64,000 bases of DNA from Xiphydria camelus (lineage: Eukaryota; Arthropoda; Insecta; Hymenoptera; Xiphydriidae): assembly GCA_963678675.1 (NCBI GenBank), contig OY783193.1:16505746-16569745 (forward strand), read 5' to 3'. The notes beneath the pieces were generated by a model. That model was given only the letters and a program-made list of their open reading frames with translations, had not been told where the DNA came from and did not search any database. This document shows, in pieces, positions 2,526 through 37,738 of this stretch (position 1 is the stretch's first letter; every line of letters starts with the position of its first letter). The translations under genes and the position numbers were made by a program.

Positions 2526-2624
2526 ATGAAGGTATTACCTAAAACTAGTACAGAACGAAATCGAGGATGGAGAGAAAGAATTAAATTCACACAATCACAC
2601 ATTGATGGATCTGAGCATAGTTGA
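2460..2624 (+). CDS. Small basic ORF, unknown function, probably a transposon fragment
   Basis: This is a 54-residue frame starting at ATG 2460; an in-frame GTG at 2439 is a less likely start. It is highly basic and contains two copies of an R-x-R-E-(F/W)-R-x-R type motif (RAKEFRERQR and RNRGWRERIK). Similar arginine-rich repeats occur at the N-termini of several insect transposon proteins, but I cannot name a family. It lies directly upstream of the hairpin MITE at 2643, which suggests truncation by that insertion. A decayed duplicate of its 5' end lies at about 2330-2395. It may not be expressed. Confidence 0.3.
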   Translation: MAKTGKQRAKEFRERQRVNKAMMKVLPKTSTERNRGWRERIKFTQSHIDGSEHS

Positions 2625-2642
2625 GGGTGAAAAAAAAATAAC

Positions 2643-2852
2643 AAAACGTGTGGCCGCCACACGCGGAAGAAGTAAAACTTCGATACCAGTTTCTCTGAAT
2701 TTGATTCCGGTGGTATTAGTTTCATTTGGCTCTACGAAGAAGCATAGTAAAAGACTTGTATAGAGCCAATTGAAACTAATACCACCGGAATCAAATTCAG
2801 AGAAACTGGTATCGAAGTTTCACTTCTTCCGCATGTGGCGGCCACACCTTTT
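2643..2852. mobile_element. Hairpin MITE, 210 bp
   Basis: Two ~95-bp arms are reverse complements around a ~20-bp loop near 2742-2760. Termini read AAAA(C/G)GTGTGGCCGCCACA on both ends. The arms differ at only a few positions. It splits a family A sequence. The subterminal TGGCNNCCA palindrome resembles that of the hairpin at 22504-22642. Confidence 0.8.
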
Positions 2853-3189
2853 GTTTTATAATTATTTTAGGAAGTCCCAAAAGAAAACAGGTGCAGTAAA
2901 ATATCGATGCTGTGCTAGAAAGAATAAGGAATAACCCTCGAACCCTAATCGGTATCAGTGATTCCTCATTGACTGTCGTTACAACGGAGACAAAGAACAG
3001 ATGAAATAGAAGTGAGGTATATGTACACTTCAGGTTTGACAGGTCGGTGTGTAAATTGGAACTTGTAACAGTACGAAAGAGGAAATATATCGGTAGAGAA
3101 AAAATAATGATAAAGTAATTACTTGATTGTGTGTTGTGATCCAACTCCATTGCATCTCCTATTTTTCTCCCACGGCTTTGATTGTGACA
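2853..3189. repeat. Foldback family A single arm
   Basis: This matches 17800-17880 (inverted) at its start and 8160-8350 at its end. Near 2920-2990 it keeps a decayed stretch resembling the mariner-like helix-turn-helix fragment at 4453-4548. Positions 2915-2945 serve as the uninterrupted version of the site into which the 4552-7843 transposon inserted. Confidence 0.7.
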
Positions 3190-3477
3190 GAGAAGAAAAG
3201 CCATCAATTCGTCTCGTGCTCGCATGACGCTGAAACAAAAAATAGAATTATCACAAAGATAATTGTCCTTCCATCGAAAGTGAGGTTAAAGCTGTCAGAT
3301 GGCAATTAAACTTATCTGATGGTAATTCTTCTGAGATACTGCCGTCTCCTTTCCTACTCTTTATGCACAGGCAACCAGAGAAACACAGCACTGCATCCGT
3401 TCACTATCTCGATTATCGAAAAAAAACAAACGATTATTAAACTATACGGAGCGTCTGTCACATTCACCACTATTGAG
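3190..3477. repeat. Foldback family B right arm
   Basis: This matches 20575-20886, 37130-37435 and 58865-59180, ending in CTGTCACATTCACCACTATT. In the complete copies this is the outer end of a large inverted-repeat element. Here only one arm remains, joined to a family A arm on its left. The next ~75 bp lead into repeat E. Confidence 0.8.
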
Positions 3478-3554
3478 ATTCATAACTCCGATTACACTGA
3501 ATTTTTACATTTTATTAACAAGCGCGTCCGAGGAACGAAATAAACGCGAGGTTA

Positions 3555-4071
3555 ATCGTTTCGCGAATGGAAATATTTTATTAATTTTGAAAAACAACTA
3601 AACATTCAAGGAATATATTCTCTCACACACTCTCACATACATTTGATGGCGTATGCGTGTGGCCGCATCTGTATACACATTTCCGACCATGGCCGAATAT
3701 CACCGAAGACAGGTGGAATTTTTGTGAGATTTTGACATATATATATCGCCCGAGAAATCGGATTCTCGACTTTTAGGTGCAAGGGGCGTGGCTTTGCGTT
3801 GCTAAGGAAAAATCCCTGTTAATATGTAACTTACAACATTTACTCTGGTCTCTATCGATAGAGAATAGTCGATTTATATTGCGTAACTAAGCATAGTTGT
3901 GGTTTTAACCGTATATTTATTGAGAAAATTCGATGTAAAAATTGAGGGGTGCAGGGGGCAGACATTTGTGGTGTAAAGAGACACGGGTGCTCGCGACATC
4001 AGCGCTGTCGTGTCTGAGCGCGGAACTACTTGAACGAACATGCCGCGAGACACTGCCGTGTCTCTTGATTT
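3555..4071. repeat. Repeat E, copy 1 (about 515 bp)
   Basis: This is nearly co-linear with 20887-21402, from ATCGTTTCGCGAATGG to CGTGTCTCTTGAT. In both places it follows a family B right arm, so B-arm plus E probably moved or was duplicated as a unit. The last ~35 bp form a small hairpin around GAGACACNGCCGTGTCTC that recurs inverted at about 24300-24335. No coding potential is seen. Confidence 0.8.
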
Positions 4072-4452
4072 CATCTCTTCTTCATCTCCGGTGTAAAGAC
4101 TGTCAATGAGGAATCACTGATACCGATTAGGCAGATAAGTGCTGAATAAAGTAGTATAATACGAAAGATGAAATATATAATTTTTAATAATTCTGTCATT
4201 ATTAAAATAGAATTGATTAACTCAGATATAATTTTTTAATTTCTACGCTCGAGTAAGTTCAGTATATTTTAAATAGTGAAATGCTGCATATAATTGTGTA
4301 ATTTACAATTTATTACAGATCGCATGCGAACCCGAGGAGGTTTCTTTCAAATGAGGGATCATCCACTTGTTGTTCAACAAGAACCAGTTGTTAGTTCATT
4401 CAGCGAGCTGGATCTGCTGTCTCGAGAGTGCATGAAAGTACGTCACTTTAAA
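4072..4452. repeat. Foldback family A fragment
   Basis: This matches parts of 2930-3000 (inverted), 230-480 and 990-1130. It continues into the mariner-like fragment at 4453 and forms the left flank of the long-TIR transposon. Confidence 0.65.
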
Positions 4453-4548
4453 TGGATGAACATCCTTTAATATCCTCCGAACCGTAGACTTGCTGATTCT
4501 AACCTCTGTTGCCATAGCCCGAATAATATTCGTTCGAGGGTTATTCCT
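4453..4548 (-). pseudogene. Mariner-like transposase N-terminal helix-turn-helix fragment
   Basis: A 32-residue stretch on the minus strand reads RNNPRT...ATEVRISKSTVRRILKD. This is the pattern of the second helix-turn-helix in the paired-like DNA-binding domain of insect Tc1/mariner transposases. No catalytic domain follows. The fragment is part of family A; a more decayed version lies near 2920-2990. The 4552-7843 transposon inserted at its edge. Confidence 0.55.
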
Positions 4549-4551
4549 TAC

Positions 4552-5190
4552 TAGTCCAGTGCATTTAGGAATTGACCCAAAAATTTCGGGTACATTTTTT
4601 CTTTTGTTGCTCATTCGAAAGGGTCATCGATGGAGACCTTAACCCTGAATTTGCGCATTTCTCAAATTGCCCCGTCCGCCGCCATCTTGGATTCTTTTTT
4701 TTTTTTTCAACTACTCATATCTCGCGTTCTAATAATCCCACAGCAGTCGCTTTGGGGTCGTTGGATTCGTCAGAATTTACTCTTTAATTGAGTTTATATC
4801 AAGTAAAACTCTCCAACGTACTGGAAAAAAGTTATTAGCGTTCAAAGTTGAAAGTTGTTTGCCAAAAGTTCTTGCGCCCGGGTTTTCCGCGCGTAGTTCT
4901 TTTCCAGTGCATCAGAGACCCCTATCGATGCTTAACTATTTAAACTAGACTCAATTTGCAGTATTTTAAAAAAAGAATCATCCCGATCGGTTGATTCCTC
5001 GCCCGGCAATCCACGCTCGAAGTTGCGCTGTTTATTATCGTGCTGTTTTGAAGCCTCTAATACTCGCGCGTCGCGCTTTGGCGAGTTCGCGGTTCGCGCT
5101 GCATTTCTCGCTTTTGTAACTAATATAACTCAAATTACTTAAGATCAACGACATATTCGTTAAATCTATGCTAAGAACACGCGTTTTACT
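4552..5190 (+). repeat. Left terminal inverted repeat of the nuclease transposon
   Basis: About 639 bp, matching the reverse complement of 7194-7843. It differs by a 12-bp indel about 20 bp from the tip (the right copy is longer), one base in the T run near 4695, and a few substitutions. The outer part contains an open stretch (4572-4787) that appears mirrored at 7596-7811; because it lies in both repeats I do not treat it as a gene. Inner boundary set where the match ends after GCGTTTTAC. Confidence 0.9.
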
Positions 5191-5424
5191 TTAATTTTAA
5201 GGTGTTCAGTTATATTTTAAAGGTGTGTTTGGGTAGAAAAGAATGACTTAAGAACGTTCTCGGTTAAGATGTTTTTATTTTGCTTAACTTTCTCTCAACT
5301 CGTTTCCACACCACCTTTGAGGTATAGTTGATGGCGCGTTTTTTTTAACGTGGTTTCCCCGAGAGGCATAATCCACGGTTTTTTCATCCTGTTTTTCATG
5401 TATCTTGAAATTTGCATTCGGATT
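5191..5424. other. Internal non-coding segment of the nuclease transposon
   Basis: This lies between the left terminal repeat and the stop codon of the nuclease/CXC frame. It is AT-rich, with no frame or repeat recognised. It would be the 3' untranslated part for a minus-strand transcript. Confidence 0.5.
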
Positions 5425-7168
5425 TCAGCCGTCTCGTTCTTCAGTTTCATGGTCGATATAATTGTTGTCGTTGTCAATGTCGTCGTCGTCGGTTGTCGGG
5501 GTCAATTCCCTTACCTTCCTTTTCATTGATTTCGTCGCTCTGGGTAAAGGTACCATCGTTGGGAGGTCGTCGCAATCTTCTTCGTCGTCATCATTCGAGT
5601 CCTCTGCGTCTTCGTTCACGTTCGTGCAGGTATCGCCACAGCAAATCTTGCATAGGTTTGAACATTTCAATCCTGCCTTTCGACATCCACAAGCGTTACC
5701 GCATTTTTTTGTGCAGCCACAGGATATGATGTCCAATAGAACTCGTGGAATTGGTTCCTGCTCGCTAGTCACTGGCTCCAAACCCCGGTTACTTTTTTTC
5801 CAGCCCCAGTCAAGCGCATTTTTCTCTTCTCCAAGCCACTTCTGAACCTGGTAATATGTCCGCAGGGAATGTTGGCGTGCTGCTGAGCTCGTTGGAGGCA
5901 ATCGTGATAAGTCGGTCTTCGTTTTGAGGCCTGAACGTGCAAACATTTTATATCTGAATTGATCAGTAGAAGCATCGGATTCTTTTCCTCCGTACAGTGC
6001 AATCAACACACTCTCCCCAGCTGCAGCGATGTTATTTTGTCCGGGAGTGGTTTTCTGAAATAATTTTATTCCTTCTCGAAGGTGAACATTTTTTCTAATG
6101 ACGTCAATTATTTTTTTTTTTCCCCATTCCACAGATCGCAGACACGGTGTCGCATCCCGAAAATGCGTGCATGAAAAGTATGTGCTCTATCATATTTTTA
6201 TGCTTGAAGCTACTCGTAGAATACATTTTCGATGCGGTTGCTCCCCTTCCGACTTTACGAAAATAGATATTTTTGAGATTTTTTCCAAGTGCGCACATCA
6301 ATACGAGTAGATCCACGTCCTCTCCTACGACTATGGCGGAATCAAATCTTGAAGGCACTTCAATTGCCGTTCTAACGATGTCCACGTCCGCATCCTCCCA
6401 TGCTTGTCTCACTTCGAATCCATGATTGATCAAGTGCTTCTTTAACATCTCAATGAAATTCTTTTTATTGCGTTCATTAGCGAGAAACTCTTTTTGTGAT
6501 GTTTTAAAAAATGTCGTGGACTCGTTGAAAAGAATATCGATTGCGCGTCCACCTCTTGCCCGCCTGTATCTTTCGGAGATTTTTGTGCTCGAGTTCGAAC
6601 CATCTTCAGGATAACCGTCGAAAACGATGATCGGATTTTTTCCATAGTTGTTTGAAATGTAAGTGACGTAACTCGTACAAATATCTTCAAAGGGTGCGTC
6701 GTGTTGCCATGTCACTCTATGGAGCAAGAATCCCCCGTCGATTACCTCGCATATTGCGTTCCCCAAGGAAATTTTTGGCAAGAGTGAATCGAATTCTTTG
6801 AACAACGCTGACTTTTGTGTTTTCCTCATGCCACAATCATCGAATAAAGATAATGGATATGGTGAGAGTTCATATTTTAGACAATCGGCTAACTCCTCGC
6901 TCGTCCTTTGCGTCAAGATCATTCGATGGAAAATTGTTTCAGTAGAAATCGTTACTCGTTCTGAGTTGACAGTTATGCTGCGAGACATTGTGGCAAAAGT
7001 GTTAACCCGATCCTTCCGGCGCAATGTAATATTCTCAAAAAATTGTCCCGTGACTTTCTCAAGCAGTTTTGCTCCAACTTTATCAGCTTCATGACAATTT
7101 ATAGAAGTATCAACGACTAATCCTGAAGCAATCGAAAAAAGTTCAGCAACTTCGTGGTGACAGTGCGG
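5425..7168 (-). pseudogene. FEN/XPG-like nuclease with C-terminal CXC domain, frameshifted
   Basis: The frame is open from 7168 and has no ATG near its start, so the N-terminus is missing or lies in an unseen exon. Counting from 7024, a PIN/FEN-type fold is suggested by VIDGG (D96), VFDGY (D136), WEDADVDIV (E210, D211, D213, D215), GEDVDLLVL (E235, D236, D238) and a GCDTVSAICGMGK motif (D292) like the helix-hairpin-helix GCD of FEN1. That frame stops at 6104 just after an A-run, and a second frame starting at 6132 continues in register, which points to a 1-base indel. The second part has RQHSLRTYYQVQKWLG, DWGWKK, a cysteine cluster CGCTKKCGNACGCRK...CSNLC...CCGDTCTN (tesmin/CXC-like), then acidic and basic tails. 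The family is common and multicopy in insects and cnidarians, with unknown function. Confidence 0.8.
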
Positions 7169-7193
7169 TTATAAATTTAAGTAAAAAATTAAT

Positions 7194-7843
7194 GTAAAAC
7201 GCGTGTTCTTAGCATAGATTTAACGAATATGTCGTTGATCTTAAGTAATTTGAGTTATATTAGTTACAAAAGCGAGAAATGCAGCGCGAACCGCGAACTC
7301 GCCAAAGCGCGACGCGCGAGTATTAGAGGCTTCAAAACAGCACGATAATAAACAGCGCAACTTCGAGCGTGGATTGCCGGGCGAGGAATCAACCGATCGG
7401 GATGATTTTTTTTTTAAAATACTGCAAATTGAGTCTAGTTTAAATAGTTAAGCATCGATAGGGGTCTCTGATGCACTGGAAAAGAACTACGCGCGGAAAA
7501 CCCGGGCGCAAGAACTTTTGGCAAACAACTTTCAACTTTGAACGCTAATAACTTTTTTCCAGTACGTTGGAGAGTTTTACTTGATATAAACTCAATTAAA
7601 GAGTAAATTCTGACGAATCCAACGACCCCAAAGCGACTGCTGTGGGATTATTAGAACGCGAGATATGAGTAGTTGAAAAAAAAAAAAAGAATCCAAGATG
7701 GCGGCGGACGGGGCAATTTGAGAAATGCGCAAATTCAGGGTTAAGGTCTCCATCGATGACCCTTTCGAATGAGCAACAAAAGAAAAAATGTACCCGAAAT
7801 TTTTGGGTCACACCTATAAAATATTCCTAAATGCACTGGACTA
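7194..7843 (-). repeat. Right terminal inverted repeat of the nuclease transposon
   Basis: This is the reverse complement of 4552-5190, about 650 bp. It carries a 12-bp insertion near the tip (about 7811-7823) absent from the left copy. The nuclease frame begins within 30 bp of its inner edge, so the promoter for that frame should lie in this repeat. Confidence 0.9.
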
Positions 7844-7846
7844 TAC

Positions 7847-8523: not shown

Positions 8524-9252
8524 TGTCACGTCATGGACAACTAGAACTACTACTAACTATCAATTCGGGGAAAACAATAGGGATCATCGATACACTCAGG
8601 ACATTTTATATCGCAAAAGAATATTCTGTTCCTACTAACCTTTCTTTGTCCTTCGATCTCTCTCTCTCTTCCTCCTCCTGTCGGCCGTGGGATCCTTGCT
8701 CCGAGGGGTGGATCGAAAGGGGTGCGCTCTCTCTTTGGTCACTCACTTTAGGTAGCACGACAGGGATAGAAATTGAGGTTTCCACAAATCACAGTCTCGG
8801 AACTTCTTTATTTAGAACGGAACACGCGTTACTCGAGGAAAAAGACAAAAGACAAAAAGCAAAAGGCTCTTCTCGGTGTCCAGGATTCTCCTTATATAAG
8901 CCGTTAGACTTCGTTTCGGGTGGGGATCCTTCCTGATGTTGAAAAGGGGAAGGAGAAGGAATGCGTTGAATCATGGAGGTTTCTTCCTGTCAGCGGCTGC
9001 TTGGTGGCCACTTGGCGTCTTGTTTTTCGCTGGTGCATTTCCTTAAATGCTACGCGGGTGGCACGTGGAGGTTTTCGCGCCTTCACCTTGCGCGAGGGTT
9101 CGTGTTACTCGCGGTGCAGTTTTGGCTCGATGCGGAGTCGGCATTCCGGCCTTCGCAGCGGCCTTGCTCGTCGCTATTTGATTCCTCTTATTCTATCGCT
9201 TTATTCGCCGCTGCGTTTTATTCCATGAAAACGGCTACGTTAGGACGTTACA
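8524..9252 (-). repeat. 3' LTR of the gypsy element
   Basis: This 729-bp repeat is identical to the other LTR except for two substitutions. It includes a CT-rich stretch near 8660, a TATATAA core at 8891-8900 and, on the minus strand, AATAAA near 8808-8813. Confidence 0.97.
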
Positions 9253-9264
9253 CCTCCCCCCTTA
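9253..9264 (-). promoter_or_regulatory. Polypurine tract of the gypsy element
   Basis: On the minus strand, CTTAAGGGGGGAGG runs directly into the 3' LTR. This is the expected position and composition for plus-strand DNA priming. Confidence 0.85.
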
Positions 9265-9709
9265 AGTCTGAACGTTAGGTGAGCCTAACGTGAAGGTTGG
9301 GGTTCATATCCCTCTTTCGGAAAAAATTTAGTTAGTTAGAGCGCATATTATTATTGTAGCCGTGTTCGTAGATTATTTCCTTAAAATGATATCTTGAGTA
9401 TTTGAAGAAGTTGACAAAAATTGCATATATCTATTTGTGAGTTTTAAATCGGATTACTAAATTATAGGTGATTTTACAAAAGTAAATGATTGTATTAAAA
9501 ATGAAATTAAGTGTATTAAATCAGTTATTAAATATATAACGGATTAGCGTAATTAACGAAGAAAAGTGTGCAAAACGAGTTATTAAGGGAAGTAATTTGT
9601 GGAAGGAATTTACTTGTAGAAAGGAGAGAATAGGAAAGAAATATTGTAGATCAGATAAATAGGATTACAGATCTTCCTCTTCATTCGTTCAGTCCCAGGC
9701 CAATTCGTC
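9265..9709 (-). other. 3' non-coding part of the gypsy element
   Basis: About 445 bp between ORF3 and the polypurine tract. AT-rich, with no frame, hairpin or motif recognised. Confidence 0.6.
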
Positions 9710-10390
9710 TCACTCTGGGAACTCCCAATCTTCCTCTTCATTCGCGCTGTCCCAGTCTTCTGGGAAGCGCTGCCAGTAGGTGGGCTTCTGTACTCGATCC
9801 TCGTACGTCCTAAGATCCGCCAGCTCCTGAGGCCAATTTAAGTGCTGCCATTCCTCTGGGGTGTAGGTGGCTACGTCCAGACGCTCGAGGTAGGAGCGAT
9901 CTGGTGGAGGTGGCTCGATGCGGTTCCTCCATTCATGTTCCTCTTCTCTCTGGGCTTGCTGGTACTCGTATTCTTCGAGGGCTTCATTGTATTCACCCCA
10001 TATTACCTCCTGGAATCCCTCCATGACGAACTCAGGTTCGTCCCAAGCTTCGTCATCCGGGTATTCCTGGGTGAATAGTTTTTGGAGATGGAAGACGTTC
10101 TCTTCGAAGTTCCATGTCCATTCCAGATATTGTTGTATGATGTGCTGGTGTACTTGTCTGGACGTTGGTTCGTATGGTAATTCCATTTCGGTTCCTTGCT
10201 GTCTGATTGATCTCTTCAGAAGCGTTTCGGTTTTGTGACTGGCTTTCTTGCGCACTTCGTGAGGTTGTATACCTGGACGGGATTTGGAATTTGAATTCGG
10301 ATTTTGGAAGTCTGCTGCTTTTGATTTGGAATTTGGATTCTGACTTTGGAAGGATTTATTTAGGATCGGTTCGTTGATGCTTGTTAGTAC
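9710..10390 (-). CDS. Third ORF of the gypsy element, acidic protein of unknown function
   Basis: The frame is open from 10390 to the stop at 9710 (about 226 codons) but has no ATG; 10255 is only a GTG. A spliced leader is therefore plausible, as for env-type ORFs of other gypsy elements. The first ~45 residues carry two Asn/Ser/Lys-rich repeats with QNPNSKSK-like units. The rest is rich in Glu, Trp and Tyr, with PPPPDRSYL and clusters such as EEEHEWRNR. I see no signal peptide, transmembrane segment or furin-type site, so it does not look like an envelope protein. It lies downstream of pol and just before the polypurine tract. Confidence 0.6.
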   Translation of the reverse strand, partial: VLTSINEPILNKSFQSQNPNSKSKAADFQNPNSNSKSRPGIQPHEVRKKASHKTETLLKRSIRQQGTEMELPYEPTSRQVHQHIIQQYLEWTWNFEENVFHLQKLFTQEYPDDEAWDEPEFVMEGFQEVIWGEYNEALEEYEYQQAQREEEHEWRNRIEPPPPDRSYLERLDVATYTPEEWQHLNWPQELADLRTYEDRVQKPTYWQRFPEDWDSANEEEDWEFPE

Positions 10391-10761
10391 TTATTGTATA
10401 GCGTACATATTACTTTCTATTTGAAGTATAATGTGATATCGTGCGTAACGCATATCCGTGTACGATATTATCCGTTACTAATTTTATTATTCTAAGTATA
10501 AATATAATTCGTTAGAATCCTGCACTGGCTGTATCGAATGTTAAGAAATTAGACCACATTTTATTCCACGTATTTTCAGCTATTTTATGAATTGTATTTT
10601 CGTCTAATAAATCTATGTTTTGATACATCTTTTTTTTTGTCTGTAATGTCTCTACCGGTCATGCTTCTTGCAATGTTATTAATAATTGTTGGTTTGTCTG
10701 CGGGGAACATAATGTGATCTCTTAGGTTTTGTAATCTATCTTTATTCTGATTTCTAATTTC
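10391..10761 (-). other. Spacer between integrase and ORF3
   Basis: About 370 bp inside the gypsy element, AT-rich, with stops in all frames. A GTACTAAC branch-point-like sequence lies on the minus strand at about 10383-10390, shortly before ORF3 opens; AG dinucleotides follow within 30-60 bases. Whether it is used for splicing cannot be told from the sequence. Confidence 0.4.
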
Positions 10762-12225
10762 TTATGAAATGTTGTAATTGTTTTCTGGGGTTATGTGCGA
10801 TATTCTTAATCTATTGACATGGACTATTTTTGTATTTTTCTTAATTCTAATTTTTACATTTGTTTTATTTATAATTTCCAAAACTTCATGTGGTCCTGTA
10901 TATTGATCACCAAATTTTCCTGATTTAATTCCTTTTAATAAGAATACATAATCGCCTACTTTGAATGTTTGAGGATTGATTTTCTTATCGTAATATTTCT
11001 TTGATTTGAATTTTGAACTTATGAGTTTTTCTTTAGCTACCTCTTGAATTTCGTGTTGTCTTGTTACTAAATCAATTAGATATCCGTCATATGTTTCTAC
11101 TTGTTCATTGTCGCAAATAGGATCATTAGATAGCAATCTTGCTAACTGTCCAAAAACTAGTTCAAACGGTGTATGATCGGTCCCTTCATGTATGCTTGTG
11201 TTGTAGGCAAAAGTCGCGAGTTCCAGCCAATCATCCCATTCTGCGTCTTTATTAACGAAGTGTTTAAGATATTCTAATAAAACGTGGTGTGATCTTTCGA
11301 GTGATCCGTTTGATTGAGGATGGAATGCGGTGGTTTTAAATTGTTTAATTCGAAATCGCTTCGCTAATCTTTTTAACATTCCACTCAAGAAATTTGTACC
11401 TTGATCTGTTAGAACTGCTTTTGGAGCACCAAATGTACATATAAATCGTTTTACAAAGGCATCTGCTATTATAGGCGCTGTTGCGTTTGGTAATTGTATG
11501 GCAATACAATATTTCGTTAAATTATCTTGAATTGTTAGAATGTATTCATTACAATTTTTTGATTTTGGCATAGGGCCAACGATATCCATAGAAATTTTGT
11601 CAAAAGCTCGACCTGGTGTATCAGAAATAATCATGGGATTTTTCGTTTTAACTCTTCTTAATTTTTTTAATTGGCAACTTAAACATTGTTGAATGAATTT
11701 TTGAATATCTACTTTAAGGTTTTCCCAATAGTACCTTTGTCTAATTCTTTTGTACGTTTTCGTAACACCTTTATGACATCCTATTGCTGAGGCGTGGCCT
11801 TCTTCTATAATATTTTTCCTGTCTTTAAATGGTGGATTTTTAATTATTCCGTGACAAATTATTATCTTTGTTTGTGATCCTTGAAAAGCAATTTTGAATT
11901 GTGTTTTAATATCTACCCATGGAATTTTAAGGATTTCTTTTGTCTTTGCAATGCTTATTGATCGTAATTTTAATTGATCGGCTTTTTCACGTAAACTTTG
12001 AATTACATTGGTAATATTATTAAAAGTGGTTGTTAATGATTGCTTTTCGGTTCCTTCTATTGGTAAAGCAATGTGAAAACAATGTCCTTTTTGTATTGAA
12101 TTAGCAGATCCGACTTGAAGATTTTTAAATTTAGGTAATTGATTCTTTTCTGCGAATGATCTCGAGCCTTCGTCTCGTGGATCACCGTTGCTTGTTGTAA
12201 AGTATGCATAATTATCTTTCCTCAT
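10762..12225 (-). pseudogene. pol: Gypsy pol, integrase portion (downstream of an in-frame stop)
   Basis: The 487-residue frame is in the same phase as the upstream pol ORF and follows its stop by 17 sense codons, so it is the 3' part of one broken pol. Residues ~40-130 resemble the C-terminal half of a macro-like fold seen in related insect gypsy elements (SIAKTKEILKIPWVDIKTQF). The zinc-binding HHCC site is H144, H151, C181, C184. The catalytic triad is D214, D274, E310, with 35 residues between D274 and E310. A basic C-terminal domain follows, with FKVGDYVFLLKG and YTGPHEVL, the GPY/F-type signature. Integrase inserts the cDNA into the genome. Confidence 0.93.
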
Positions 12226-12276
12226 CCAAATTTGATCTTTGGTTTCAACAAAATTTGAGTTTGACTGATTTTCTTT

Positions 12277-15162
12277 TTAAACTTGATGTAATTCTTTTGT
12301 ATCATTGTAATTTGGAATGAATGATTCTAAGCTATCTTCCGATGTGATTGATTCGTTATCAGAAATTATATTACCGTCCTCGTCTACGGGTTGTATAAGG
12401 TCTAAGTCGTCGTCAGTCATTTTTTGTATACTGCCGGGTTCATATTTTGGAACATTTTCTTTTATTTTATTCCTTCTGGGTTTTATGGTAATTGAATCTG
12501 TTTGTATATTAGATGATTCAGTGATATTTGGTTTTTTTGCTTGAACTTGATTTTGAATTCTTTTACTTCTTCGAGGATTTGAATCTTTTTGAACTATATT
12601 GACATGTTTAAAATCAATAGGATTGGTATGGATTTGAGCTTCTACTACAAATGTTTCCGATGGGGATTCTAATAATTCTTCTTCTGTGAAGGGTATACTA
12701 TCTCTATTTGTTCTTTCTAAATTTTCTTCATTAAATGGTTGTTTCTGATTTACAGTTAAAATTGGATTTCTGGATAAAGCATCTGCGTTAACGTTTGTTT
12801 TTCCTGCTTTATGTACTACATCAAATTCATATTCAGCAAGTTTAACTCTCCAGTTAGAAACACGGGAGCAAGGGTCTTTGGATTTTTGAAACCAAACTAA
12901 TGGTTTATGGTCCGTGACTAATGTAAATTTTCTTCCGTATAAGTATGGTCGAAAATGTGTGACGCTATAAATTATTGCAAGAGCTTCTTTCTCGTAAGTA
13001 TCGTATCTTTTTTCACAATCTGTTAATACTCTAGAGGTGTACGCGATGGGTCGATCTTTTCCTATCGGTCCTTGCGATAAAATTCCGCCTATTGCATACC
13101 CTGAAGCGTCCGTTGTAACTATAAATGGTTTCGTAAAGTCAGGATATTGTAATACCGGTGCTTCACATAATTTATTTTTTAAAATATCAAATGCTATTTG
13201 TTGTTCGTTTGTCCATTCAAAATTTCCTTCTTTCTTTAAGAGATTAGATAAAGGTTTGGCAATTTTAGAAAAGTTTTCAATAAATCTTCTGTAATAACCG
13301 GCTAATCCTAAAAATTGTCTAACGTTTTTCTGGTTTTTAGGAATCGGAAATTTTTCAACTGCTTCTATTTTCTTTGGGTCTGGCTTTACTCCGTTTTCAC
13401 TTATTATGTGGCCAAGATATGCAACTTCTTTTCGTAGAAATTCACATTTATCCGGTTGTAAACTTAATTTTGCTGTTCGCAGTCGTTCTATGAGTTTAAT
13501 AAATTTTTCCCGATGTTCTTCTAAGGAATTTGCATAAATTACGATGTCGTCAAGGTATACGAATAATTCAATTCCCTGTAAACCTGTTAGTACGCGGTCC
13601 ATGAGTCTCTGAAATGTTGCTGGTGCATTTTTTAATCCGAAGGGCATGCGATTAAATTCGTAATGACCGTATGGTGTGGAAAATGCGGTTTTATGACGAT
13701 CTTTGTCGCTCATTTTTATTTGATGAAAGCCTGAGGCTAAGTCAAATACTGAGAAATATTTCGCTCTACCTAACTGATCTAATATATCTACTATATTAGG
13801 CAGTGGATAAGAGTCTCCTATTGTTTTTTCATTTAACGATCTGAAATCTAATACCAGTCGGTAACGTGGTTCATCTGACTCAGCTTTTTTCTTTTTAGGG
13901 ACTATCCAAAGTGGTGTATTATAAGGTGATTGAGAAGGTCTAACTATTCCTGCTTCAAATAGTTCTTTAACTTGTTTATTGATTTCCTGTTTGTGAATTG
14001 GAGGAAATCTATATTGACGTTTATTAATTGGTAACTCATCTAATGTTGGAATTTCATGTTCTAATACGTTTGTTGCTTCTAAATAATCGTCTTGTACATG
14101 AAATCTATCCTCACTTAATTTGATCAAATATTCGACTTCTTTTCTTTCTTCTTCATTTAAATGATTTAGACGTAGTAATTCTTTTATTTGTTTTATTCTT
14201 TCTGTGTTTTTGTTACGGTTTGAATTATTAATAACATTTTCTGTTATTTTATTTACTTCTTCTATTCTATTAAGGTCTTTTAACGCGATACTATGATCTG
14301 TCCGTTTATTTGCCCTAGAATAGGTTTTTATTTCGTTATTTATTTCTTCTATTCTATTAAGGTCTTCTAACGCGATACTGTGATCTGTCCGTTTATTTGC
14401 CCTAGAATAGGTTTTTATTTCATTATAATCTGATTCATTTGAATTAATAATGTCTTTGACTTTATTATTTAATTTTTCCTCGTACGCGTATAGTTCTAAC
14501 GTTGGGATTAGTACTTCAATTTCTTCTTCAGTAGTATTGAATATTTTTAAATATGCTTTGCCGTTATTATTTGATACTAGTGTTTCTCCGAGGTATATTC
14601 CGTCGATTATTTTTAATCGCGGTATGTATCCTTCTTTTAAGTTCGTTGGTTTTAATCGAATGTAAATTGTTGAGATTGCCCTTGCCGGTACAACAATAGT
14701 TTCTCCAGTCTCGAAAGGGACATTGTGTCCTTTGATTTCCAAACAATTCCCTGCGTAGTTAATCTTAGCATCGTTATCTATAAAGAAATCTGAGCCTAGT
14801 ATACCGTCTTGTTCGATCGGGAAATCATCCGGTACTAAATGAAAAAAGGTATTGCAACCTAAGACATTTATTGAAATTCGGCCTAAGGTCGTCACCTTAT
14901 GGGCCGTAATCCCGCTTAACTGGACGATCTCACTATGATCTACTAAATTTGGGGCACTATTAACTCTTTGCTTTAAAAGATTAGGACCGGCTCCTGTATC
15001 AAGCATTAGGGTTACCGGGATACATAGATTAGCAGGGGCCACGCGAACTGTTGGAACTCTACTTTCTTGACTTAGATTTACTGTTGATGATCGGATATTT
15101 GGCTTTGATTTTGTTGGATTGTGTGTATGGGACGCGTTTGAGTATTTGAGTTCGTTCCCCAT
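12277..15162 (-). CDS. pol: Gypsy pol, protease-reverse transcriptase-RNase H portion
   Basis: This is a 961-residue frame; it is open from 15216 and overlaps gag by about 139 nt in the -1 phase, suggesting -1 frameshift expression, though I saw no canonical slippery heptamer. Protease is LMLDTGAG (D55). Reverse transcriptase has FSVFDLASGFHQ and FVYLDDIVIYA (YLDD about residues 536-539). RNase H has TTDASG (~682), YEKEALA, VTDHKPL and ADALSR (~791). A long acidic/basic linker follows and ends at a TAA (12277-12279), after which the same frame resumes with integrase. A 29-residue unit containing KTYSRANKRTDHSIAL is duplicated in tandem between protease and reverse transcriptase. Confidence 0.95.
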   Translation of the reverse strand: MGNELKYSNASHTHNPTKSKPNIRSSTVNLSQESRVPTVRVAPANLCIPVTLMLDTGAGPNLLKQRVNSAPNLVDHSEIVQLSGITAHKVTTLGRISINVLGCNTFFHLVPDDFPIEQDGILGSDFFIDNDAKINYAGNCLEIKGHNVPFETGETIVVPARAISTIYIRLKPTNLKEGYIPRLKIIDGIYLGETLVSNNNGKAYLKIFNTTEEEIEVLIPTLELYAYEEKLNNKVKDIINSNESDYNEIKTYSRANKRTDHSIALEDLNRIEEINNEIKTYSRANKRTDHSIALKDLNRIEEVNKITENVINNSNRNKNTERIKQIKELLRLNHLNEEERKEVEYLIKLSEDRFHVQDDYLEATNVLEHEIPTLDELPINKRQYRFPPIHKQEINKQVKELFEAGIVRPSQSPYNTPLWIVPKKKKAESDEPRYRLVLDFRSLNEKTIGDSYPLPNIVDILDQLGRAKYFSVFDLASGFHQIKMSDKDRHKTAFSTPYGHYEFNRMPFGLKNAPATFQRLMDRVLTGLQGIELFVYLDDIVIYANSLEEHREKFIKLIERLRTAKLSLQPDKCEFLRKEVAYLGHIISENGVKPDPKKIEAVEKFPIPKNQKNVRQFLGLAGYYRRFIENFSKIAKPLSNLLKKEGNFEWTNEQQIAFDILKNKLCEAPVLQYPDFTKPFIVTTDASGYAIGGILSQGPIGKDRPIAYTSRVLTDCEKRYDTYEKEALAIIYSVTHFRPYLYGRKFTLVTDHKPLVWFQKSKDPCSRVSNWRVKLAEYEFDVVHKAGKTNVNADALSRNPILTVNQKQPFNEENLERTNRDSIPFTEEELLESPSETFVVEAQIHTNPIDFKHVNIVQKDSNPRRSKRIQNQVQAKKPNITESSNIQTDSITIKPRRNKIKENVPKYEPGSIQKMTDDDLDLIQPVDEDGNIISDNESITSEDSLESFIPNYNDTKELHQV
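14261..14434 (-). repeat. In-frame 87-bp tandem duplication in pol
   Basis: Two adjacent 87-bp units encode 29-residue repeats that differ at only a few bases. They lie in the linker between the protease and reverse transcriptase domains. The length is a multiple of three, so the frame is kept. Confidence 0.85.
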
Positions 15163-16268
15163 GCAGCGCCCTGTGATGGGGAACTGTAGGAGTTTCCCGT
15201 TTGAAATTGTTGCATATTATTTCTTTGTTTTTGAAAGCATTTTTCTGTCGTGTGATTAAATTTTCCGCAATAATCACATTTTATTTGAGGTCTATTCCCG
15301 TTATTAAAATTTCGATTTGAATTTTTGTTATTTATTATATTCCTGCAAACGGTTGCTTTATGGCCTGGTTTTCCGCAAAATTGACATATATCTACATTTG
15401 TGAAATTTTTAAAGCGTTGACGACAGTTATCTGTCGTATGATTATTTCTTTTACATATTTGACAAGACATTTGCGGATTGATGTTTTTGGATAGTAATCG
15501 ACAATTGTTTGCTGTATGACCTTTTCGTTTACATATTTGACAAGTTGGAATTTCGGTTTGAACGATATTTATTTTCTGTGGTCGCGATCTACAAACGTCC
15601 GCGGTGTGATTATTTTTATTACATATTTGACATATTGTTCCTATTTTTCTGAAATTGTCTCTATTATTAATCGGGCATTGATTTGCTGTGTGACCTTCTA
15701 TATTACAGATTTGACATTTAATAATTTGGCTGTTTGTTGTAGGAGTTAATTGGTCGTTAGAATTTTGTGGTCCTCTACCTCGCATTTGTTCCACGCGTGT
15801 TAACGTTCGTTCGAGTTCTACTGCTTTAATTCGTGCGCTTTTGAGATTATCTACTTTTCCCATATTGCATCTTATATCTGGATTTAAACCTCGAATAAAA
15901 TATTTTAGTAAATCTTTCTTTACTTCTTCTCCGAAATTTTCGTCGGTTATACGATTTTCTATTCTGTGACCGTCGGTAATTCTTTTGGCTAATTCTCTAG
16001 CTCGATTTAAGTATGTTATGACGTTTTCGTTGTGATACTGGCAAATGTCGCTCAATTCTCCGTAGTATTGATGAATAGTTTTTTCAGGGGCGTATATTTC
16101 TTCTAAAAATGTTGTTAATTGATCTACTTCGGATTCCGATTCGCGTGGTAGCATATTTTTCGCTTCCTTGCATGCTTCGAGAAAATCGCCTAAAGGTATA
16201 TTTTGGCCATTAAAACGCGGTACAATTTCTATTGCTGTTTTAAGAGAAATCTTTTGATTGTTTGCCAT
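15078..16268 (-). CDS. gag: Gypsy gag with six CCHC zinc knuckles
   Basis: This is a 396-residue protein. The capsid-like region (about 1-160) includes FLEEIYAPEKTIHQYYGEL and YLNRARELAKRI. Then come six C-X2-C-X4-H-X4-C knuckles at about residues 185-198, 213-226, 243-256, 269-282, 295-308 and 331-344; the last two are a little different from the first four. Most insect gypsy gags have one to three. A Gln/Asn-rich tail overlaps pol. The step from PRESESEV to DQLTTFL looks shorter than in related capsids, hinting at an in-frame deletion, but that is a memory-based impression. Start chosen at the only upstream ATG, 445 bp from the LTR. Confidence 0.93.
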   Translation of the reverse strand: MANNQKISLKTAIEIVPRFNGQNIPLGDFLEACKEAKNMLPRESESEVDQLTTFLEEIYAPEKTIHQYYGELSDICQYHNENVITYLNRARELAKRITDGHRIENRITDENFGEEVKKDLLKYFIRGLNPDIRCNMGKVDNLKSARIKAVELERTLTRVEQMRGRGPQNSNDQLTPTTNSQIIKCQICNIEGHTANQCPINNRDNFRKIGTICQICNKNNHTADVCRSRPQKINIVQTEIPTCQICKRKGHTANNCRLLSKNINPQMSCQICKRNNHTTDNCRQRFKNFTNVDICQFCGKPGHKATVCRNIINNKNSNRNFNNGNRPQIKCDYCGKFNHTTEKCFQKQRNNMQQFQTGNSYSSPSQGAAWGTNSNTQTRPIHTIQQNQSQISDHQQ

Positions 16269-16690
16269 GGTTGTATTCGAGTTATTTGAATTGTCGATAC
16301 TTGGGCGACCTATGGTTGTTAGGGAGGTTTCTAGAAAACTGTCGCTAAAATCTGTGGAAGTTCGTGTAGGAGTTTGTGGTAATTGTATTACTGGATTTTC
16401 CTTCTAGTTTGCTTTGTGGGGTTATTCTCAGAATCTGGCATATTATTTATGTAGGTAATTAATATCGATCATTTTATATAATTTTGCTATAATTTGTAAT
16501 GATTTTTGTTTGTCTCTTTTTTTTCAAATAAGGCAATTAATAATTAGTGGTATATAGATTCTGCTGGTCAGTTAGGATAGCACCAAGCTAAATTTTAGGA
16601 ATTGAACCTAATATCCAACACTCTACGCGAGCAAACGATCGGAACCTTCCGTATAGCGGGAGTCGAACCCGCGATCTTTCTGACCAGACT
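16269..16690 (-). other. 5' leader of the gypsy element
   Basis: This non-coding leader lies between the primer-binding site and the gag ATG. Apart from the tRNA-like arm at 16656-16672 no feature is recognised. Confidence 0.7.
16656..16672 (-). other. tRNA T-arm-like stem-loop in the gypsy leader
   Basis: The minus strand reads GCGGG-TTCGACT-CCCGC, a perfect 5-bp stem with a T-loop sequence that also fits a Pol III B box. It is followed by TATACGGAA. A box-A-like GGCCGAGTCTGG lies just upstream, overlapping the primer-binding site. The spacing is too short for a complete tRNA and there is no anticodon arm or 5' acceptor strand, so this is not a tRNA gene. It may be a tRNA-derived fragment. 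Confidence 0.6.
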
Positions 16691-16704
16691 CGGCCGATGC
16701 ACCA
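16691..16704 (-). promoter_or_regulatory. Primer-binding site, tRNA-Gly
   Basis: On the minus strand TGGTGCATCGGCC begins nine bases after the 5' LTR and is complementary to the 3' end of insect tRNA-Gly(GCC) with CCA. The match may extend a few more bases with one mismatch. Confidence 0.8.
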
Positions 16705-16713
16705 AAAAGGCGT

Positions 16714-17442
16714 TGTCACGTCATGGACAACTAGAACTACTACTAACTATCAATTCGGGGAAAACAATAGGGATCATCGATTCACTCAGGACATTTTATA
16801 TCGCAAAAGAATATTCTGTTCCTACTAACCTTTCTTTGTCCTTCGATCTCTCTCTCTCTTCCTCCTCCTGTCGGCCGTGGGATCCTTGCTCCGAGGGGTG
16901 GATCGAAAGGGGTGCGCTCTCTCTTTGGTCACTCACTTTAGGTAGCACGACAGGGATAGAAATTGAGGTTTCCACAAATCACAGTCTCGGAACTTCTTTA
17001 TTTAGAACGGAACACGCGTTACTCGAGGAAAAAGACAAAAGACAAAAAGCAAAAGGCTCTTCTCGGTGTCCAGGATTCTCCTTATATAAGCCGTTAGACT
17101 TCGTTTCGGGTGGGGATCCTTCCTGATGTTGAAAAGGGGAAGGAGAAGGAATGCGTTGAATCATGGAGGTTTCTTCCTGTCAGCGGCTGCTTGGTGGCCA
17201 CTTGGCGTCTTGTTTTTCGCTGGTGCATTTCCTTAAATGCTACGCGGGTGGCACGTGGAGGTTTTCGCGCCTTCACCTTGCGCGAGGGTTCGTGTTACTC
17301 GCGGTGCAGTTTTGGCTCGATGCGGAGTCGGCATTCCGGCCTTCGCAGCGGCCTTGCTCGTCGCTATTTGATTCCTCTTATTCTACCGCTTTATTCGCCG
17401 CTGCGTTTTATTCCATGAAAACGGCTACGTTAGGACGTTACA
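16714..17442 (-). repeat. 5' LTR of the gypsy element
   Basis: 729 bp. On the minus strand a TATA-type core (TTATATAAG, 17081-17090) is followed about 85 bases later by AATAAA near 16997-17003, a usual LTR layout with a short R region. The transcription start cannot be fixed from sequence. Confidence 0.96.
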
Positions 17443-19282: not shown

Positions 19283-20878
19283 GGTGAATGTGACAGACGC
19301 TCTGACAGCTAGCTATTATCAAATCGTTTGGATTTTTTTTTAATAATCAAGATAGTGCACGGAAGCAGTGTCATTTTTCTCTGGTTGCTGGTGCATGAAG
19401 AGCAGGAAAGGAGACATCTGTATCTCGGAAGAAGTGGCATCAGATAAGTTACTTCCTAACTGACTGTCTTAACCTCATTTTCATCCCTTATACAGAACAA
19501 ATATCTTTGTGGTTATTCTATTTTTTGTTTTCAGCGCCATACGAGAACGGGACGGATTGATGGAAATTTAATTTTTCTTCGCAGTCAAAAATCAACCTAG
19601 GTAGAAAAGAATTCTCTAGAATTGCGGTACAATGCCACGGTATGAATATCAGGTTCTACCGACATGACATGCTTCGACAAGTTCTGTATCAACTTTAGCG
19701 GTATATTGGGGGCACTGCACTAATCCTGTGGCACATTTTTCTATCTGGGAAAGCATATTATTATGGTAGTACAGCTGTGCAGCGTTTCGGTAATATACCG
19801 TCTTCCCGTACTGACAGTATACATGCATTTTTTACCTCTAATATGCCGGAATTAAAAATCTCTAGAACTCTGCGGTACAATGCCACGGTAGGAATATCAA
19901 ATTCTACCGACATGACATGCTTCGACAAGGTCTGTATCAACTTTAGCATTATATTGGGGGCACTGCACTAATCCTGTGGCACATTTTTCTATCTGGGAAA
20001 GCCGTGGTAGAAAAGTAGGATATACGATAGAATTGGATTACAATAATGAAGTAATTATTTTATTATCTTTTCTTTATCGATATATTCCCCCTTTCGTATT
20101 ATCAAAAGTTCCAATTATATATTATCGGAACGCTGTACAGCTGTACTACCATAATAATATGCTTTCCCAGACAGAAAAATGTACCACAGGATTAGTGCAG
20201 TGCCCCCAATATACCGCTAAAGTTGATACAGACCTTGTCGAAGCATGTCATGTCGGTAGAACCTGATATTCCTACCGTGGCATTATACCGCAGAGTTCTA
20301 GAGATTTTTAATTCCGGCATATTGGAGGTAAAATGCATGTTACTGTCAGTACGGGAAGACGGTATATTATCGGAACGCTGTACAGCTGTACTACCATAAT
20401 AATATGCTTTCCCAGATAGAAAAATGTGCCACAGGATTAGTGCAGTGCCCCCAATATACCGCTAAAGTTGATACAGACCTTGTCGAAGCATGTCATGTCG
20501 GTAGAACCTGATATTCATACCGTGGCATTGTACCGCAATTCTAGAGAATTCTTTTCTACCTAGGTTGATTTTTGACTGCGAAGAAAAATCAAATTTCCAT
20601 CAATCCGTCCCGTTCTCGTATGGCGCTGAAAACAAAAAATAGAATAACCACAAAGATATTTGTTCTGTATAAGGGATGAAAATGAGGTTAAGATAGTCAG
20701 TTAGGAAGTAACTTATCTGATGCCACTTCTTCCGAGATACAGATGTCTCCTTTCCTCCTCTTCATGCACCAGCAACCAGAGAAAAATGACACTGCTTCCG
20801 TGCACTATCTTGATTATTAAAAAAAAATCCAAACGATTTGATAATAGCTAGCTGTCAGAGCGTCTGTCACATTCACCA
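19283..20878. mobile_element. Foldback family B, ~1.6 kb with nested sub-repeats
   Basis: The ends read GGTGAATGTGACAGACGCTC as inverted repeats. Inside each arm is a ~180-bp unit (GGTACAATGCCACGG ... GGGGGCACTGCACTAATCC) occurring twice per arm: about 19626-19790 and 19870-20003 forward, 20120-20300 and 20355-20540 inverted. The centre (about 20005-20120) is a piece of family A. A second, simpler copy is at 58060-59180. No transposase is seen. Confidence 0.85.
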
Positions 20879-20886
20879 CTATTGAG

Positions 20887-21402
20887 ATCGTTTCGCGAAT
20901 GGAAATTTTTTTTAATTTTGAAAAACAACTAAACATTCAAGGAATATATTCTCTCACGCACTCTCACATACATTTTTGATGGCGTATGCGTGTGGCCGCA
21001 TCTGTGTACACATTTCCGACCATGGCCGAATACCGCCGAAGACAGGCGGAATTTTTGTGAGACTTTGACATACATATATCGTCCGAGAAATCGGATTCTC
21101 GACTTTTGAGGCGCGAGGGGCGTGGCTTCGCGTTGCTAAGGAAAAATCTCTGTTAATATGTAACTTACAACATTTACTCTGGTCTCTATCGATAGAGAAT
21201 AGTCGATTTATATGGCGTAACTAAGCATAGTTTTGGTTATAACCGTATATTTATTGAGAAAATTCGATGTTAAAATTGAGGGGTGAAGGGGGCAGACATT
21301 TTTCCTGTAAAGATACACGGGTGTTCTCGCGGCGACAGCGCTGGCGGCGTCGTTCTGACGACTTGAATGAACATGCCGCGAGACACTACCGTGTCTCTTG
21401 AT
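20887..21402. repeat. Repeat E, copy 2
   Basis: This is the counterpart of 3555-4071, with about a dozen small differences; like that copy it follows a family B right end. Confidence 0.8.
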
Positions 21403-30606: not shown

Positions 30607-31498
30607 TAGTCCAAGGCACTTACCCATTTTTACCTATGCCGCAAAACAATCGATGAGGGTAGGCTGATTTTTTCAGGGTTGTTTAAGGGCAGCCTCGAGA
30701 GTACCGAACCAAAAGATCACACTCGAAATCCTCTGGCGTTCGGCGCTAGAGGCTTTTTTTATAAACAAATTTTCTTTTTTTTTCGACAAAATGACCTTAA
30801 TAAAAGTTGTAGATAATAATATTTTGATCAACTTTGCCTTATGACTTTTTTTCCTAGCTATTTTAGTTTAGGCGTTACGGCCACTTTTATGTTTGAGCCG
30901 ACTATACTGAGCCGCATTATACTGACGTACATGGTGCGTCGCCGGCGTCTGCGGTATAAGTCGCATGACGCACCTGGTGTTAACAGCAGCGAAAGTATAA
31001 CAGCAGTGATGATGACGACGAAGATATCGAAGAAACTTCCCAGGCGACGTCCCCGACAGATGAAGATATTTTGAACATCACTGGCGCTGATGTTCCGCCC
31101 GAAATGTTTTCGCCAGGTCCGTCCCGGAAAAGAGGACGTTTTCAGCAATACGGAAACTATTGAACGAATTGATACGTATCGTGAATTAGGCCTACAGGGG
31201 AAATCACGTGTCGGCTCAAACATAAAATGTGGCCGTAACGCCTAAACTAAAATAGCTAGAAAAAAAGTCATAAGGCAAAGTTGATCAGAATATTATTATC
31301 TACAACTTTTATTAAGGTCATTTTGTCGAAAAAAAAATTTTTTTAATTTGTTTATAAAAAAGCTTCTAGCGCCGAACGCCAGAGGATTTCGAGTATGACC
31401 TTTTGGTTCGGTACTCTGGAGACTGCCCTTAAACAACACTGTAAAAATCACACTACCCTCATCGATTTTTTTGCAAAATGGATAAGTGCCTTGGACTA
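30607..31498. mobile_element. 892-bp foldback element, ends like the nuclease transposon
   Basis: Inverted ends TAGTCCAAGGCACTTA(C/T)CC are flanked by a 3-bp duplication TAT (30604-30606, 31499-31501). Arms are about 300 bp. The tip TAGTCCA and the TA(C/T) 3-bp duplication match the element at 4552-7843. The loop (about 30960-31165) contains an acidic coding-like remnant with DIEETSQATSPTDEDIL and PSRKRGRF before a stop. A right half of the same family lies at 37440-37738. Confidence 0.8.
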
Positions 31499-31577
31499 TA
31501 TTCTCTGTGGTCAGTAAAAGTGAAGTTAAGGTTGATACTTGTTTACACTTGTTGCTGAAGGGTTTATTGTTGCAGAA

Positions 31578-32081
31578 ATGCCGAGAAAAGTGCGAAAAGT
31601 GGTGGGCGGGCGTAGCTATCGGCGATACAACCCTCAAGCCATTGAAAATGCATTGACAGATGTTGTGAAGGGCATGACGGTGGCAGCGGCGAGCAGAAAA
31701 CATGGTGTACTGCGGATAACTCTTTTAGATAAATTCCATGGATGGCACATGCACTCAGTGGGCCACCCAATAGCTCTAAAACCTCGTGAGGAGCAACTGA
31801 TTGTCGATACAATAAGTGAATTAGTGAAATGGTCGTATCCACTGACTGAGCTGGATATTCGCCTAATAATCAAGGGCTACCTTGATAAACAGGGCTATAT
31901 TAACCCGGTTTTTCCCAATAACATGCCCGGTAAGGACTTTATGGTGCATTTTATGGCCAGACATAACCTCACACAACGGTTAGCTGCTATAAGCAGTCGT
32001 ACAAGAGCGTTTTTTTCTTTATATATCTTTTTTTTTTGGTGGGGAGAAAAATGTTCCATAGACTTGTATTTACAATATTAG
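31578..32081 (+). pseudogene. Pogo/Jerky-like transposase, N-terminal DNA-binding part
   Basis: From ATG 31578 the frame reads a psq-type helix-turn-helix (YRRYNPQAIENAL, VAAASRKHGVLRITLLDKF), then a CENP-B/Tc5-type segment (REEQLIVDTISELVKW, LDIRLIIKGYLDKQ, NNMPGKDFMVHFMARH, LTQRLAAISSRTRA). This order is standard for pogo/Jerky transposases. After about 32010 the frame runs into unrelated sequence and stops, so the DDE catalytic domain is missing. Family proteins normally start at this MPRK-type methionine. A CAG acceptor-like site lies just upstream. Confidence 0.85.
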
Positions 32082-37085: not shown

Positions 37086-37435
37086 TAGTTATTCCATTGC
37101 ATCTCCTATTTTTCTGCCACGGCTTGTTGATGGAAAAGAAAAACCATTGACTCGTCCCGTGCTCGCATGATGATGAAAACAAAAAATAGAATATCCACAA
37201 AGATATATGTATGTCCTTCATAGGCAATCAAAGTGAGGTTAGAATGGTCAGATAGAAAGTAACTTATCTGATGGCAATTCTTCTGAGATGCTGCCGTCTC
37301 CTTTCCTGCTCTTTATGTACAGGCATCCAGAGAAAAGTAGCACTGCATCCGTTCACTATCACGATTCACGATTATTAAAAAAAAAATACAAACGATTAGC
37401 AAACTACACGGAGCGTCTGTCACATTCACCACTAT
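37086..37435. repeat. Foldback family B right arm
   Basis: This matches 3150-3477 and 20575-20880, ending CATTCACCACTATT, where it joins the foldback half below. Confidence 0.75.
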
Positions 37436-37439
37436 TCGC

Positions 37440-37738
37440 CAGGGCCGTCCCGAAAAAAGGGGACGTTTTCAGCCTCTCTCCAGGGCCGTACTCTTTTCCC
37501 GGGACGGCCCTTGCGAATTTCTAAACACAAAAATAGCCGTAGCGCCTAAACTAAAATAGCTAGAAAAAAAAGTCATAAAGCAAAGATTAGAATGTTATTA
37601 TCTACAACTTTTATTAAGGTCATTTTGTCGAAAAAAATAATAATAAAATAATAAAAGAGGCTTTTCACACTAAAAAATCACACTACCCTCGTCGATTTGT
37701 TTACGGCATAGGTAAAAATGGATAAGTGCCTTGGACTA
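37440..37738. repeat. Right half of the TAGTCCA foldback family
   Basis: TCGCCAGGGCCGTCCC through to AAGTGCCTTGGACTA matches 31108-31498, including the end of the coding-like loop. A second inverted GGGACGGCCC lies at about 37500. The left half is missing. Confidence 0.75.

Follow-up and report, generated by a model that had tools for sequence, protein, structure and literature searches.

A nuclease-only transposon in Xiphydria camelus as a probable internal-deletion derivative of a family encoding a transposase-like region joined to a FEN-like nuclease

RESULTS AND DISCUSSION

The window, by which we mean the whole 64,000-nucleotide stretch of the Xiphydria camelus genome that was analysed, carries a real mobile element at positions 4552–7843. 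The element is recently moved DNA and represents a known kind of transposon in non-autonomous form. Its coding part consists of a FEN/EXO1-like nuclease and a cysteine-rich tail. We consider it very probable that this copy is an internal-deletion derivative of a cut-and-paste family whose full-length protein comprises a cysteine-containing N-terminus, a DDE-type region, a FEN/XPG/EXO1-type nuclease and a CXC-like tail. A transposon with only a nuclease is then explained as the remnant of a larger transposase–nuclease protein.

Ends, target-site duplication and empty site

The non-autonomous copy is 3,292 bp long (4552–7843, no strand assigned) and has the ends TAGTCCAGTGCATTT. Self-alignment gave a left terminal inverted repeat of 647 bp (4552–5198, plus strand) and a right one of 659 bp (7185–7843, minus strand), which are 97.9% identical over 659 aligned columns; 626 + 21 nt are a perfect complement, and the main difference between the two is one 12-bp length difference near the ends. 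On the plus strand, TAC at 4549–4551 is exactly matched by TAC at 7844–7846. When the two flanks were joined, 90 nt aligned across the junction to the minus strand of 2854–2943, a related uninterrupted (empty) site, with a score of 148 compared to a maximum of 39 in 200 letter shuffles. The exact TAC duplication and the 640-bp terminal repeats reported in the initial annotation were both recovered, and the uninterrupted site that it had placed at 2915–2945 is the junction-proximal part of the 90-nt match.

Coding content of the window copy

Both coding frames lie on the minus strand. The nuclease frame (6107–7168, 354 codons) is recognized by the motifs IDGGFLLH, VFDGY, EDAD, GEDVDLL and HAFSGCD, and the C-terminal frame (5425–6132) shows a CXC-like cysteine cluster on translation. 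The two overlap and are out of register with each other, parting at a run of 11 A (T11 on the plus strand, 6111–6121). The length of this run is 7 to 12 A in near-identical copies; it is A10 in L019 and L028 and A7 in L018, and in these three copies the nuclease can be read into the CXC-like part in one frame. In the window copy, L014, L017, L020, L021 and L022, its length puts the two parts out of frame. Thus, of the single nuclease–CXC protein that had been annotated, the FEN-type motifs, the GCD and the cysteine-rich CXC-like stretch stand, but in the window they are divided between two frames. The nuclease frame opens directly behind a stop codon that lies close to the inner end of the right repeat, at the deletion junction described below; the gene has therefore lost its N-terminal side. 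The absence of a DDE transposase from this copy, which had also been claimed, agrees with our search, as the transposase region had no match inside 4552–7843.

Copies with the same ends in the host genome

The window lies on contig C10 of a host assembly of 38 contigs and 357,211,407 bases. The 15-bp end TAGTCCAGTGCATTT had 79 exact matches genome-wide (38 forward and 41 reverse), and the reversed pattern, used as a control in the same genome, had none. Sixty of the 79 ends form 30 inward-facing pairs spanning 190 to 12,976 bp, namely the window copy and 29 others; the remaining 19 unpaired ends are outside this set. A 3- or 4-bp duplication flanks 27 of the 30 pairs (3 bp only in 23, 4 bp only in L022, L026 and L037, and ambiguous in L029, where it reads AAAA) and is absent in L013, L015 and L030, the chance expectation per copy being 1/64 for 3 bp and 1/256 for 4 bp. 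Counted from the central base of the 3-bp duplication, the target sites have a weak lean to C/C and G/G at −3/−2 and +2/+3. Their palindromy was not significant (76 of 253 pairs vs 71.4 in shuffles).

The layout of the window copy is common to three copies, and since the other two, L021 and L022, are 99.9% and 99.6% identical to it, the spread was recent. In L023–L026 the repeats are 1.44–1.46 kb long and take in part of the nuclease gene. This corresponds to an enlargement from about 650 to about 1,450 bp, a form that abortive gap repair might yield. The repeats of L030–L033, L035 and L038 measure 0.9 kb, and these copies show no coding match; L013 and L037 retain different fragments of the gene, which come from its transposase region. 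As a separate observation, L009+L010, L012, L013 and L027, copies of up to 13 kb, have the same 15-bp ends around interiors that are wholly or partly unrelated to L011, a 6,857-bp copy discussed below; these may reflect captured DNA or the nesting of one insertion in another.

We used the read-through nuclease as query in a six-frame search and scored the best 75 of 2,515 first-look candidates. Among these, all 19 rows with at least 82% identity lie in 14 of the 30 paired TAGTCCAGTGCATTT copies, in line with the earlier proposal that the nuclease is a mobile-element protein. The other 56 of the best 75 rows are 37–47% identical, and 14 of them are in open frames of at least 1,000 codons. We saw neither full-length copies with these ends that encode a DDE transposase and lack the nuclease nor a nuclease gene that lies mainly outside the ends, the two results named in the initial annotation as speaking against its reading.

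An internal deletion accounts for the nuclease-only copy

One of the paired copies, L011, has the same ends as the window element, is 6,857 bp long and is flanked by TGG. Positions 1–2602 of the window element correspond to L011 1–2605 at 96.7% identity and positions 2617–3292 to L011 6185–6857 at 96.0%. The alignment places the deletion junction at 7154–7167 of the window (no strand assigned), where 14 bp are unaligned and 3,579 bp (L011 element positions 2606–6184) are missing. In L011 these 3,579 bp hold a decayed match to residues 3–913 of a full-length relative on contig C28, and the nuclease and CXC-like parts follow; L011 as a whole aligns to residues 3–1422 of that 1,498-residue protein. 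The motifs DNAD, FDQP and TIEQ can still be read in its decayed transposase region. We therefore attribute the nuclease-only appearance of the window copy to an internal deletion, since the missing N-terminal ~916 residues are still present, in decayed form, in L011. What remains in the window copy is the C-terminal ~40% of the gene, along with the two ends of the element.

The junction of the window copy falls at 2605|6185 on L011, and those of other copies at 2388|5883 (L014, L016 and L017), 2371|5877 (L018–L020) and 2290|5769 (L015). All of these separate deletions spare the part of the gene that encodes the nuclease, and an open frame of 479–501 codons survives in some copies, as might be seen if nuclease-only derivatives were selected as a trans-acting helper or repressor gene. 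This explanation appears very unlikely to us. The nuclease-only copies have lost the N-terminal part of the gene, the A run breaks the frame in the six copies named above, and among the other derivatives, L013 and L037 retain transposase-region sequence instead and some have nothing but their ends. Variable sites in 11 copies are distributed as 5/2/4 over codon positions 1/2/3, which gives no clear sign of constraint and is too few to decide.

The 3,579 bases absent from the window copy were also used as a DNA query, for which the best 40 of 1,340 candidates were scored and gave 52 match rows. Among these 40, at least about 1.7 kb of the missing stretch was present at L011, at C14:13744527 and at C28:8185757, and 1.3 kb was present inside L013. 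Both L011 and the place at C14:13744527 are decayed. Among the matches that were scored and read, none was an intact full-length copy bearing the ends of the window element, so it is by inference that we assign mobilization in trans to the window's own family.

Full-length relatives encode one long protein

Open frames were found in several relatives. At C28:8922006–8926538, a 1,511-codon open frame (1,498 from the first Met) lies between ~600-bp repeats that are 99% identical, with the ends TAGGCCAGT and the duplication GTA. L070 has 1,505 codons, 466-bp repeats, the ends TAGTCCAGTCATT and the duplication TTCA. L073+L074 has a 1,427-codon frame with an apparent separate exon upstream of it, 503-bp repeats at 95% identity and the duplication TAC. 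L072 has an open frame of 1,478 codons and similar ends, with 199-bp repeats at 76% identity and no duplication, and for L071 (1,321 codons) no ends were found within 6.9 kb. Duplications of 3–4 bp were thus seen in three of the four relatives for which both ends were found, L072 being the exception. In two subfamilies, one with L063, L064 and L066 and one with L059–L061, separate insertions cease to be homologous at ...CTGGCCTA or at most 4 nt away; in this comparison, L068 of the first subfamily ends short of that point. The ends of the window family and its relatives can be written as TAG(T/G)C(C/T)AGT.

The open-frame relatives encode a single protein of about 1,470–1,500 residues, in which N-terminal cysteines are followed by a D/D/E-type region, a FEN/EXO1-like nuclease and a CXC-like tail. 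One of two alternatives offered in the initial annotation, that the window copy simply lacks the transposase, is borne out by these full-length copies, in which a single polypeptide contains both the nuclease and a transposase-like region whose acidic residues are invariant. The other was that the nuclease–CXC protein is itself the key enzyme, which we considered in the form of a recombinase that would move a non-DDE element by FEN-type activity. It could draw on the 13 of 14 nuclease-bearing same-end copies, all but L011, that have no match to the transposase region, and on L018 and L019, in which an open nuclease–CXC frame of 501 codons is kept. Against this, relatives with the same kind of ends and 3–4-bp duplications carry the transposase-like region, with its invariant acidic residues, in the same open frame as the nuclease, and L011 shows that the window family once had such a region as well. 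L031–L033, L035 and L038 have moved, judging by their duplications, and have no nuclease match, which shows only that the nuclease is dispensable in cis. We rejected the nuclease as sole enzyme and regard it as extremely unlikely.

When the 1,498-residue C28 protein was scanned against Pfam from its first Met, no family reached the cut-off. Given this result for one protein, and given that 14 of the 56 distant rows (among the best 75 of 2,515) lie in frames of at least 1,000 codons, genes of this kind might wrongly be taken to belong to the host.

Conserved regions of the protein

The five full-length or nearly full-length proteins are 39–47% identical to the first. In their N-terminal two thirds, DNADxN, DQPxYxKAR, GGFH, GHFxYA, YLQDM and WTDxxxEQxLM are invariant. 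The nuclease part has DGGxLLH, FDGY, DAD, DxDLLV and GCDTTSA in all five, and the C-terminal part has in common a cysteine cluster with KAGL and a conserved spacing of cysteines. Invariant across the five are D/N/D, D and D/E, in addition to the acids of the nuclease. The N-terminal motifs look like a DDE catalytic core, which we treat as putative since the catalytic role is deduced from the pattern of residues. The transposase region had no significant match in Pfam or the PDB, including a search of the PDB with a full-length profile, which leaves an RNase H fold putative.

DUF6589, a mainly fungal family, appeared below the cut-off in one of the five full-length members and in two of five pieces (E 0.013 and 0.16). 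The better of these weak matches is to the transposase region at L073:2958–4682 (minus strand), the Pfam family itself being one of unknown function. The match is possibly a link to other Academ lineages, and we note it as a lead only. A search for DUF6589 found none in the insect's own genome nor in 14 control genomes, which decides nothing.

For the nuclease, the best four PDB matches of an eight-sequence profile were all human Exonuclease 1, with weak E values of 0.003–0.027. The alignment begins after the DGG motif and covers VFDG, (E/D)AD, DxDLL and GCD, and the acidic motifs and GCD are invariant in the eight sequences. The Pfam XPG models did not match the nuclease, and a hint of NYN was below the cut-off in two of the eight sequences. 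A single-sequence AlphaFold prediction of the window nuclease alone had a pLDDT of 33, and a single-sequence PDB search returned only designed proteins and ecotin, which are chance matches. The CXC piece had no Pfam or PDB match. Among viral contigs, the window nuclease as query gave no pattern match and two further queries gave 74 (A1) and 16 (A2) stretches with no relatives among them; among prokaryote genome contigs, A1 gave 84 stretches and again no relatives. In insects and cnidarians, proteins of this type may be multicopy, as the initial annotation states.

The alignment of the nuclease core with EXO1 would also be expected if a mobile element had picked up a fragment of a FEN/EXO1 gene from the host. 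The Pfam XPG_I family, however, was found at four places in the host genome, none of them among the 75 scored nuclease places, and several subfamilies, 39–47% identical to the first, have the nuclease and the transposase region in a common frame. On these two grounds host-gene capture was rejected, and we assign it next to no probability.

Relation to AcademX and other systems

The nucleases of Academ elements are of the XPG type, and the AcademX lineage of the Academ superfamily was reportedly described by Kojima in 2020. AcademX elements have 3- or 4-bp target-site duplications and AcademH elements 9- or 10-bp duplications, a difference that is seemingly tied to the encoded nuclease and helicase (PMC10045372). 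The window family resembles AcademX in having a nuclease and 3- or 4-bp duplications, both lengths occurring within the one family, as well as inverted terminal repeats and, in its full-length copies, a transposase-like region; the window copy itself has no transposase part and a broken nuclease frame. On duplications and nuclease the family fits AcademX, and we call it AcademX-like, a likeness in described features. In contrast to the helicase and 9–10-bp duplications given for AcademH in the same source, the Pfam scans of five full-length relatives contained no helicase and the duplications are 3–4 bp, and the window family is therefore not AcademH. What AcademH may share with the window family is the weak DUF6589 hint below the cut-off, and the superfamily if the AcademX placement is right.

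The guess of AcademX in the initial annotation has thus fared well on the duplications in 27 of 30 pairs and on the nuclease; the transposase is so far recognized by D/D/E-type motifs only, with no significant Pfam or PDB match. One might instead suppose that the likeness to AcademX is superficial and that the family forms an uncatalogued superfamily of its own, as the 1,498-residue protein reached no Pfam cut-off and the likeness is by description. This seems quite unlikely given that 3- or 4-bp duplications and a nuclease are the features stated for AcademX in PMC10045372, and that the fit to AcademH is absent on both helicase and duplication length. No openly licensed literature linking an Academ transposase with XPG was found, a result that is silent on the rest of print.

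The family nuclease shares DGG, FDG, (E/D)AD, DxDLL and GCD with the FEN1, XPG and EXO1 nucleases, but it is highly divergent from them, lies within a transposon protein and has a CXC-like tail. In Tn7, labour is divided between the TnsA endonuclease and the TnsB DDE transposase. The family may offer a parallel, in that a second nuclease would deal with the strand that is not cut by the DDE enzyme; unlike TnsA, the nuclease here is of the FEN type and not of the restriction-like fold, and it is fused to its partner in one polypeptide.

Possible mechanism

In the deletion model that we favour, one deletion removed the N-terminal ~916 residues and left both ends of the window element in place, and a full-length protein, now or recently, probably acted in trans on these ends. 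The DDE region would cut and join the 3′ ends. The FEN-type nuclease might cut or trim the 5′ strand at the ends, either as a donor flap or as the non-transferred strand. FEN-type enzymes suit branched or flapped DNA, and 5′-strand cutting or flap removal is for that reason the most natural role. Such a 5′-strand role for the nuclease, next to a DDE transposase, is nevertheless a guess, which we hold as possible rather than probable. A more specific proposal is a two-nuclease transposase in a single chain, with DDE chemistry for the 3′ strand, a FEN-type activity for the 5′ cut or flap, and trimming by the nuclease that would set the duplication at 3 or 4 bp; we think this unlikely. If it were true, this genome would offer natural test substrates in its many deletion copies. 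With intact relatives at hand, and with 3- and 4-bp duplications within one family, the role of the nuclease is directly testable.

Other elements in the window

Ends of the same type (TAGTCCAAGGCACTT) also bound a second element, at 30607–31498 (no strand assigned). It is 892 bp long, has ~300-bp inverted repeats at 89% identity and the duplication TAT, and it showed no match to the nuclease and CXC frames. A single end of its family, 67 bp and 89.6% identical by alignment, lies at 37672–37738 on the minus strand, and additional pieces of the family are present at 37435–37637. Adjoining the second element is a 181-codon frame (31536–32078, plus strand) with a helix-turn-helix-like start, which we take to be of the psq/CENP-B type; it is perhaps the gene of another transposon. 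The window also contains an LTR retrotransposon at 8524–17442, with 729-bp LTRs (8524–9252 and 16714–17442) that are 99.7% identical and long minus-strand frames that we labelled gag- and pol-like by eye. Finally, there are large elements built of inverted repeats: a 1.5-kb near-palindrome (90.9%) at 57867–59353 is about 96% related to inverted repeats at 19283–20888.
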